64,000 nucleotides of DNA from Pontibacter sp. HSC-14F20 (GTDB taxonomy: Bacteria > Bacteroidota > Bacteroidia > Cytophagales > Hymenobacteraceae). The stretch covers positions 62,001-126,000 of the forward strand of contig NZ_JAHZTC010000006.1 in assembly GCF_019599265.1 (NCBI RefSeq), read 5' to 3'. Of this stretch, positions 43,078 through 57,426 are shown piece by piece. Every line of letters starts with the position of its first letter. Position 1 is the first letter of the stretch. Under the pieces are notes generated by a model. It ran no database searches. It was not told where the DNA came from and saw nothing but the letters and a program-made list of their open reading frames with translations. The position numbers and the translations under genes were made by a program.

Positions 43078-43119
43078 AAACCGCCATACCTCAGCAATGC
43101 AGCTGAGGTATGGCGGTTT
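43078..43119 (+). terminator. pyrF terminator, 18-bp perfect stem
   Basis: AAACCGCCATACCTCAGC pairs exactly with GCTGAGGTATGGCGGTTT over a six-base loop. The arms contain ATACCT/AGGTAT, close to the abundant word of this window. Confidence 0.85.
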
Positions 43120-47237: not shown

Positions 47238-47269
47238 AAGAGGGCTATACCTGCAGGTGTAGCCCTCTT
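47238..47269 (-). terminator. terminator built from an inverted pair of the abundant word
   Basis: AAGAGGGCTATACCTG is followed at once by CAGGTGTAGCCCTCTT, a near-perfect 32-base palindrome (one T-G pair). On the minus strand it runs into TATTTTAC, so it serves the ABC-F gene. Confidence 0.8.
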
Positions 47270-56691: not shown

Positions 56692-57264
56692 ATGGAAGAG
56701 CAACTGCATCAGGACAAAACGTTCGAGAAAATCACTTACCCAAACAAAGCCGTCAGGGGCAGGGAGTTTGAGGACTGCGTGTTCAAAAACTGCGATTTCT
56801 CCAGCGCCGATTTCTCCAACAACCGCTTCACCGATTGCGAATTTATTGGCTGCAACCTGGCTTTGCTGCGCCTCAGCAACTCGACCCTAAATGGCGTTAC
56901 GTTCAAGGAGTGCAAACTTACAGGTATAAATTTCAGCGAGTGCGAGGAGTTCTTGTTTACAGTGGGTTTCGAGAGTTGCCTGATGGATTATACATCATTC
57001 CTGAAACGTAAAATGCCGAAGGCGCTTTTCATCGATTGTTCGTTAAAAAATGCTGTATTTGAGTTCACCACGCTAACAAAGGCCAGGTTCGAAAACACAG
57101 ACCTGGCTGGAGCAGTTTTTGAGCGAACCAACCTCAGTGAAGCCGATTTGAGCACAGCCTACAACTTTATAATAGATCCGGAACTCAACAACATCAAAAA
57201 AGCGAAGTTCTCGGAGAACGGGCTGGCAGGTTTGCTGAACAGGTATGACATCCGGGTCGTGTGA
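56692..57264 (+). CDS. pentapeptide-repeat protein
   Basis: A 190-residue protein in which A(D/N)LxF-type pentapeptides run from about residue 20 to 160 (CVFKNCDFSSADFSNNRFTD, CNLALLRLSNSTLNGVTFKE, TDLAGAVFERTNLSEADLS). It should form a right-handed quadrilateral beta helix. Qnr/MfpA proteins that shield gyrase share the fold, but a resistance role cannot be claimed from sequence alone. Confidence 0.88.
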   Translation: MEEQLHQDKTFEKITYPNKAVRGREFEDCVFKNCDFSSADFSNNRFTDCEFIGCNLALLRLSNSTLNGVTFKECKLTGINFSECEEFLFTVGFESCLMDYTSFLKRKMPKALFIDCSLKNAVFEFTTLTKARFENTDLAGAVFERTNLSEADLSTAYNFIIDPELNNIKKAKFSENGLAGLLNRYDIRVV

Positions 57265-57290
57265 CAGGTATAGCTATACCTTATACCTGA
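57265..57290. repeat. cluster of three TATACCT words with a 16-bp palindrome
   Basis: AGGTATAGCTATACCT (57266-57281) is a perfect palindrome made of two facing copies. A third copy (TATACCTG) follows at 57282. It lies directly after the pentapeptide gene stop and may act as its transcript end. Confidence 0.85.
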
Positions 57291-57426
57291 CGCCCTTTGT
57301 GGCTATACATACTTGCTTGATATTTATTATACCTGTAGGTTGAACAATCCGCAAACTGCAATCAACAATTACCACAAAATCCTTAATTTTGCCTTTTGGC
57401 GCAAAAAGCAGAAAAACTAGTTTACG

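Follow-up and report, generated by a model that had tools for sequence, protein, structure and literature searches.

Immediately behind a gene of Pontibacter sp. HSC-14F20, two copies of the heptamer AGGTATA face each other in a perfect 16-bp palindrome that starts one base past the TGA stop codon (Table 1). The locus raises the question of whether inverted pairs of this word serve as parts of terminators behind genes, in the manner of the uptake sequences of Neisseriaceae and Pasteurellaceae, as an earlier note on this DNA had proposed, or whether it is a mark of a different kind. The window, that is, the whole stretch of 64,000 nucleotides analysed here, belongs to a genome of 4.64 Mb in 97 contigs (G000). 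What the note had said of the site itself was borne out: the palindrome of two facing words lies behind the pentapeptide gene with a third copy beside it (and a fourth in the same intergenic gap), and the word is abundant, with 83 copies of AGGTATAG in the window against 2.2 expected and 145 of AGGTATA against 12 expected. The palindrome occurs once in the window and at 16 places in the whole genome. The same facing pair had also been claimed for a terminator at 47238–47269, and the pair CATACCT/AGGTATG for the arms of the pyrF terminator (43078–43119). Words are indeed present in the arms of both hairpins, but in both their order is opposite to that at 57266, with a TATACCT-type word first and an AGGTATA-type word second at 43085–43112 and at 47246–47261, and only one of the four arms contains an exact AGGTATA.

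Table 1 Positions of the palindrome, of the neighbouring and related features in the window and of features elsewhere in Pontibacter genomes
Feature	Position	Strand	Remarks
16-bp palindrome AGGTATAGCTATACCT	57266–57281		AGGTATA (+, 57266–57272) facing TATACCT (57275–57281)
Third AGGTATA copy	57282–57288	-	In tandem with the second copy
Fourth AGGTATA copy	57328–57334	-	Same intergenic gap
Upstream gene, 190 aa	56692–57264	+	Pentapeptide-repeat-like by eye; TGA stop 57262–57264
Downstream gene, 875 aa	57427–60054	+	Anchor for 80 named loci
Strong terminator-like hairpin	43085–43112		CATACCT and AGGTATG in the arms, diverging order
Hairpin	47246–47261		TATACCT (exact) and AGGTGTA (one mismatch) in the arms, diverging order
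Dispersed words, 83 AGGTATAG and 145 AGGTATA	1–64000	both	90 of 145 in called genes, 54 between genes, 1 partial
comEC of G000, broken	L145 481–2005		Frame change, two stops, no match past residue 514 (480 bp examined there)
dprA of G000, broken	L259 9232–10351		Frame change, stop
comM of G000, broken	L285 2657–4178		Frame change
comEC of G017	L107 926–3021		Frame change near residue 540
Tandem array, 17 AGGTATA	L148 11505–11623 (G000:C87:80001–100000)		Head to tail, period 7, between genes
Tandem array, 9 AGGTATA	L138 18911–18965 (G000:C33:160001–180000)		Period 6, between genes
Second, more distant dprA-like gene	G026:C2:451482–452096		
Second, more distant dprA-like gene	G033:C61:1243–1854		

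Pairing was analysed in a sample of 864 kb, consisting of 40 stretches of 20 kb from G000 together with the window, which holds 1829 copies of AGGTATA and 706 genes called by a purpose-written script. Facing pairs separated by 0–20 bp number 20, where 20.7 are expected from the local density of the word, and within 60 bp after stop codons there are 8 such pairs where 7.5 are expected, so that they are no more common downstream of genes than single-copy density predicts. Of 98 hairpins that lie no more than 100 bp behind a stop codon and have a stem of 8 bp or longer, 6 contain the word in the stem (expected 6.0); the corresponding figures are 9 of 127 against 6.4 with stems of 7 bp and 3 of 57 against 4.7 with stems of 12 bp. 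In the convergent gaps only one gapped facing pair was found among 137 words, and of the pairs with gaps of 0–20 bp between genes (convergent, co-directional and divergent, arrays removed), 43 are tandem, 10 facing and 6 diverging. The claim that the word forms inverted pairs at gene ends is thus refuted as a general statement within the 864-kb sample, where pairs, pairs after stops and hairpin stems are all at chance level and paired use has no support beyond the density of single copies.

Single words crowd behind stop codons, where there are 6.8 per kb over the first 60 bp and, with the tandem arrays left out, 10.2 per kb over the first 20 nt; coding sequence has 1.79 per kb. By class of gap the density of AGGTATA is 6.57 per kb in convergent, 3.14 in co-directional and 2.97 in divergent gaps, the two tandem arrays included; the positional profiles omit these arrays (26 of the 1829 words), which were kept in the densities by class and in the counts of pairs after stops. 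The peak just after stops arises in part from the stop codons themselves, which supply letters of the word. The exact 16-bp palindrome, with its gap of 2, is in modest excess (5 against about 1 in the 864-kb sample), and 12 of the 15 sites examined fall between −8 and +60 bp of a stop and one inside a gene; of single AGGTATAG, 164 of 990 are so placed near a stop. Pairs that overlap in a common TATA (gap −4) were counted 20 times, against an estimated ~15 if the 962 forward words need three more letters. Since the number of pairs scales with the square of the local density and stops supply letters of the word, we read the excess of the 16-mer at stops as mostly an effect of density, which does not account for all of it. 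In six of the 15 places the 16-mer begins on the last base of the stop codon, and at one locus (L002) a longer palindrome is centred on it. Use of the word as inverted pairs in terminators can point to the three real examples in the window (Table 1), to the crowding of single words behind stops and to the 16-mers placed there; set against the three chance-level counts, the predominance of tandem over facing and diverging pairs, the letters contributed by stop codons and the near absence of facing pairs from convergent gaps, we regard it as very improbable.

The word is a property of the whole genome. AGGTATAG is present in 5041 copies (2620 + 2421) in G000, as compared with 133 (68 + 65) of the reversed word, and in 2823–5222 copies in eight of the 36 other Pontibacter genomes counted. 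A protein scan with the product of the downstream gene, which we take to be valyl-tRNA synthetase, gave 80 named loci, the closest of them from Pontibacter, and counts in the 35 named Pontibacter loci showed that the pattern A-NN-TATA is spelt in three ways. AGGTATA(G), the GG dialect, is found in P. lucknowensis, P. ramchanderi, P. indicus, P. roseus and others; AAGTATA(A), the AG dialect, in P. ruber, P. mangrovi, P. flavimaris and others; and AACTATA(G), the AC dialect, in P. populi, P. fetidus, P. burrus and others. Mixed genomes also exist (for example, P. vulgaris), and locus counts showed no excess of any of the three spellings in P. ummariensis, P. qinzhouensis, P. beigongshangensis, P. 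diazotrophicus and P. pamirensis. Pontibacter sp. E15-1 (L044), which we scored as word-free, has 15 GGGTATA against 2.4 expected and 16 GTATAAA against 2.5, possibly a weak further dialect. Copies of AAGTATAA reach 7030 in one genome of 5.2 Mb, and those of AACTATAG reach 8208 in one genome of 4.5 Mb.

Chance, codon usage or base composition might be thought to produce such counts, as codon bias does lift some heptamers and words of a foreign dialect can be moderately raised, AAGTATA by 4.5-fold in AC loci and AAGTATAA to 215 + 199 against 66 + 69 in G000. In the pooled loci of their own dialects, however, AGGTATAG, AAGTATAA and AACTATAG exceed a trinucleotide model by 34-, 30- and 59-fold, respectively, and the reversed form of AGGTATAG is rare in G000, so that we count this explanation as refuted. 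The AAG word in AC loci may be a remnant or a second dialect.

In the anchor-gene tree, the GG genomes form one clade (100/99), the AG genomes are basal and paraphyletic with some basal forks open, the AC genomes fall inside AG beside the mixed genomes, and word-free species appear in several places. A midpoint-rooted tree of dprA and comEC from 50 genomes keeps the GG and AC clades and sets AC apart; the basal placement of AG is therefore that of the anchor-gene tree alone. Three genomes (G062, G063 and G068) were assigned to GG by their place in the tree, in agreement with their loci, and three (G066, G069 and G070) were assigned as word-free from the other two words and sampled loci, genome-wide counts of AGGTATAG excluding G059–G071. 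Beyond Pontibacter, Hymenobacter setariae and Hymenobacter sp. BT559 (L072, L083) have 54 ACCTAGG against 5.6 expected and 45 CCCTAGG against 5.2, which could be another abundant word of the family, and Rufibacter ruber and R. roseus (L050, L055) show a weaker excess of AAAACAG (50 against 10.9).

The specificity of the word is sharp. Most one-step variants are near expectation and few are tolerated, such as GGGTATA (314 against 65 expected) and AGGTATG (431 against 82) in the G000 sample of the GG dialect. The sequence profile around AGGTAT has no dyad, the only palindromic part being the core TATA. Sharp specificity, together with hyperabundance in coding and non-coding DNA, would also be expected if the word were HIP1-like or linked to methylation, a methylase or other sequence-specific enzyme targeting it and thereby driving or protecting it, with changes of specificity giving rise to the dialects. 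The word is non-palindromic, though, and none of its one-step neighbours is strikingly depleted, as Vsr-type repair would predict (the counts are small). As such an enzyme would also leave the association with comM described below unexplained, we consider this explanation unlikely.

Within genes, the dialects rewrite synonymous codon pairs. Gly-Ile is encoded as GGT-ATA in 37.6% of 1532 cases in GG loci and in 3.2% of 188 in word-free loci; Ser-Ile as AGT-ATA in 31.1% of 370 in AG loci and 7.0% in word-free loci; and Thr-Ile as ACT-ATA in 43.4% of 286 in AC loci and 3.9% in word-free loci. In AC loci the pairs GGT-ATA and AGT-ATA reach 14.2% and 18.2%. Word density drops as protein conservation rises (Spearman −0.865, 20 ortholog groups). 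The two stretches of lowest density in the G000 sample are, by eye, an exopolysaccharide-type cluster (L141, 0.35 words per kb against 2.1) and the rpoBC/ribosomal region. Aligned word sites are retained between species 1.9–2.5 times as often as expected across the three dialects (GG 1349 of 1874 against 580 expected, AC 236 of 478 against 126, AG 387 of 649 against 152), and reversed decoy sites were kept in 10 of 79 cases against 22 expected. The expectation here is that of other heptamers of the same G + C content at equal flanking identity and, as the species pairs overlap, no p value is attached. A direct test of gain was weak, with 19 word gains against about 10 expected. In 20 stretches of 20 kb from a closed AG genome (G019) no strand polarity with GC skew was seen, forward and reverse words being balanced at both signs of the skew. 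Codon rewriting, retention of sites and the link with constraint are what would be expected of a driven genome-wide mark, not of a signal specific to particular loci.

We know of no report of transformation in Pontibacter, and a literature search judged by titles and the beginnings of abstracts gave none of relevance. ComEC was found in all 41 genomes searched for it and matches to DprA and to ComM/YifB in all 50 genomes searched for the other competence genes; helix-hairpin-helix (HHH_3) domains are present in 50 of 50, among the matches listed. For 32 of the 41 genomes comEC was followed through at the level of single residues; for the other nine its state is that given by the list of matches. 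A profile search for secretin gave no match in 41 genomes, and the profile of the pilus/T2SS ATPase (T2SSE), with the best candidates in 50 genomes scored, gave fragments of some 40–65 residues only, which passed the cut-off in 3 of the 50 by at most about 1 bit. With no secretin and only fragments of the ATPase, a type IV pilus in Pontibacter appears unlikely from these searches and a reader of the ComP type would not be expected; none of the known machines for sequence-specific uptake was seen, and a reader would have to be of a new kind.

Among 50 genomes dprA is broken only in G000 and G021 and comM in these two and in G001, G011, G019 and G031; among 41 genomes comEC is broken in G000 and G021 and, by a single frame change that could be a real break or an assembly error, in G017 (Table 1). 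G021 has stops or frame changes in comEC, dprA and comM, and its helix-hairpin-helix gene is broken too, among the matches listed. NamZ-type genes are intact in both G000 and G021, and the coding fraction is 0.80 in G000 as compared with 0.75 in G019 and 0.82 in G021; the intact NamZ-type genes and ordinary coding fraction of G000 make a generally poor assembly an unlikely cause of its breaks.

Word density in the AG genomes is lower where comM is broken. The test set comprises the 20 of 50 genomes in which AAGTATAA exceeds 400 per Mb and AACTATAG stays below 250 per Mb, densities being based on genome sizes rounded to 0.1 Mb; the mixed genomes G026, G032 and G067, the weak-word genome G007 and G017 (AC, comEC broken, words dense) are outside it. 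The five genomes with broken comM have 449, 461, 693, 710 and 824 AAGTATAA per Mb and the 15 with intact comM have 818–1472 (exact rank test, p = 2.6e-4). Phylogenetic regression gives p = 4.9e-5 at lambda 0 and 2.7e-4 at lambda 1, and 2.9e-4 and 1.0e-3 without G021. The five genomes lie apart on the tree, each below its intact relatives in word density. The association, which was noticed before it was tested and rests on these five genomes, weakens to p = 0.0029 when G007, with few words and an intact comM, is counted in, and with the GG genomes added, among which G000 is broken yet word-rich, p is 2.0e-4 to 0.0057 (lambda 1).

The tie of the word to transformation is thus an association with exceptions. 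G000, in which comEC, dprA and comM are all broken, has 1086 words per Mb, within the 656–1187 of its relatives, and G017 is the densest AC genome at 1824 per Mb; being broken and yet rich in words, both require a recent loss or an assembly error. Decay of the words is not visible in the one-step transition variants, of which there are 0.30 per word in G000 as compared with 0.21 in other GG loci, and 0.11 in G021 as compared with 0.35 in G019 and 0.34 in named AG loci. Word-rich genomes with a broken comEC would be readily accommodated if the word were the binding site of an abundant chromosomal protein (acting in nucleoid organisation, repair or recombination) and were selected site by site, and the level of retention in all three dialects and the variant spectrum, which resembles that of a binding site, fit this too. 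Density, however, tracks lack of constraint and not one class of position, the closed genome G019 shows no strand polarity of the kind known for Chi or KOPS, the genus would repeatedly have had to lose such a protein and give it a new specificity, respelling the whole genome as it did so, and the comM association is again left unexplained. On balance we find a chromosomal protein of this kind a rather unlikely explanation.

In G019, G001, G011 and G031 (L280, L281, L282, L283 and L284) comM is split by islands of 6–17 kb. The insertions are at two positions, one near residue 240 and the other near residue 372, and in G031 the one gene holds two islands. The islands at the two positions carry tyrosine recombinases of related domain make-up, and in three of the four genomes there is cargo of defence type: in G019 a Type ISP restriction enzyme, in G011 a CBASS-like combination of cyclic-nucleotide synthetase and ThiF protein, and in G031 a sacsin/NOV protein. 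Recently acquired DNA would be expected to contain few copies of an uptake word; the islands hold 29 AAGTATA in 54.8 kb, or 0.53 per kb (0.10–0.96), the sample of G019, the sole host compared, having 0.80 per kb. In Acinetobacter baumannii, as described in the accessible portion of the source, islands, some of them with CBASS, likewise interrupt comM and lower transformation (PMC11472951). Pontibacter differs in showing two related tyrosine recombinases at two positions of the gene and in that the count of words may serve as a footprint of the event.

The ten word-free genomes have unbroken dprA and comM in every case, and comEC is unbroken in all seven of them searched. It follows that dprA, comM and comEC do not suffice for the word, and that its loss in these genomes needs another cause, for instance a lost specificity of the reader. 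No gene for a reader was found among the candidates tried. DUF5689 occurs in 22 of the 50 genomes, among them 4 of the 10 without the word and 18 of the remaining 40, and is absent from G000, and NamZ/DUF1343 has intact matches in all 50 and is uninformative. In the neighbourhood of dprA (31 loci), no gene is shared by every word-bearing locus while being absent from the four word-free loci compared. As for comEC as a specially word-rich gene, its richness is only what its low conservation predicts. A second, more distant dprA-like gene is present in two genomes (Table 1). The word-free genomes are also larger, 5.0–6.5 Mb (n = 10) as compared with 3.8–5.5 Mb in the forty others (phylogenetic p of about 4e-6), a difference of interest for the question whether uptake that selects for self helps to keep mobile DNA out of genomes.

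We conclude that the word probably tags DNA as self in connection with DNA uptake and is not part of a gene-end signal. More specifically, we hold it slightly better than an even bet that AGGTATA(G) is the spelling, in the GG dialect, of a word by which Pontibacter marks its own DNA, similar to an uptake sequence and maintained by natural transformation. A sequence-specific step of transformation would favour DNA that bears the word; its reader would most likely be a DNA receptor in the outer membrane rather than a type IV pilus, with entry through ComEC, handling by DprA and recombination with the help of ComM. Alleles with the word would then replace alleles without it, and copies would pile up wherever protein and regulatory constraint allow. 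A change in the specificity of the receptor would be followed by respelling of the genome, presumably from AAG to GG and from AAG to AAC, and where transformation has long been weakened, for example by a mobile island in comM, the copies would dwindle. The wider proposition, that Bacteroidota possess a pilus-free, sequence-specific form of transformation with a putative outer-membrane reader of A-NN-TATA words, that its specificity changed at least twice in Pontibacter with the words rewritten, and that comM islands weaken the system so that the word fades, we put forward tentatively, at somewhat short of even chances. With its three spellings, mixed genomes, word-free lineages and broken competence genes, Pontibacter offers a set of natural experiments in which the dynamics of word accumulation can be tested and the reader might be found by comparing word-bearing with word-free species.

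Several known systems invite comparison. HIP1 of cyanobacteria is likewise a hyperabundant short word, of disputed function, but it is palindromic, which the Pontibacter word is not; Chi and KOPS are strand-polar words, unlike the Pontibacter word, which in the closed AG genome shows no strand bias by GC skew. To our knowledge the only families known to have uptake sequences are the Neisseriaceae and the Pasteurellaceae, which both possess type IV pili, and in the open-access literature, judged by titles and the beginnings of abstracts and with subscription journals mostly outside its range, we found no report of them in Bacteroidota.

A described system within the Bacteroidota is that of Riemerella anatipestifer. 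According to the accessible portion of the source, its natural transformation is pilus-free, with a proposed outer-membrane barrel and a surface protein, and needs ComEC, DprA and a helix-hairpin-helix protein; three YifB/ComM mutants were some 150–420-fold lower in transformation (PMC8459023). Homologues of ComEC, DprA, ComM and the helix-hairpin-helix protein are present in Pontibacter too. As differences, the term "uptake sequence" is absent from the text of that paper (PMC8459023), and DUF5689, a domain of the R. anatipestifer surface protein, has the patchy distribution in Pontibacter noted above. The uptake signal sequences (USS) of Pasteurellaceae, from what is accessible of the sources, resemble the Pontibacter case in being hyperabundant, in having subtypes by clade and in the presence of competence genes, and differ in the word, its length and the phylum, and in that no type IV pilus genes were found in Pontibacter.

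In Neisseriaceae the DNA uptake sequence (DUS) occurs in dialects read by the minor pilin ComP, as the accessible portions of two papers describe (PMC3630211, PMC3868556). The comparison with uptake sequences drawn in the earlier note fits the word itself, in its copy number, its presence in coding and non-coding DNA and on both strands, its dialects and its association with a transformation gene; it fails for the paired terminator use seen in Neisseria. As far as these sources go, both words are short and non-palindromic and occur in thousands of copies, and both come in dialects, two of them together in some genomes, which agree with the tree and have a common core (A..TATA in Pontibacter). 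DUS is linked to transformation, and the Pontibacter word is associated with it, with the exceptions described above. The differences are that Pontibacter belongs to the Bacteroidota and the bearers of DUS to the Betaproteobacteria, that the Pontibacter word is shorter, that no secretin and no full pilus ATPase were found, that inverted pairs and terminator use are not in excess, and that the Pontibacter case is known from sequence alone. The word thus works like DUS and USS; we do not class it as a member of either, as we looked for the pilus machinery and the habit of inverted pairs and found neither and as a bias in uptake is something we infer. A dialect-forming word at equal or greater density in a phylum without the pilus machine would mean an independent origin with another reader.
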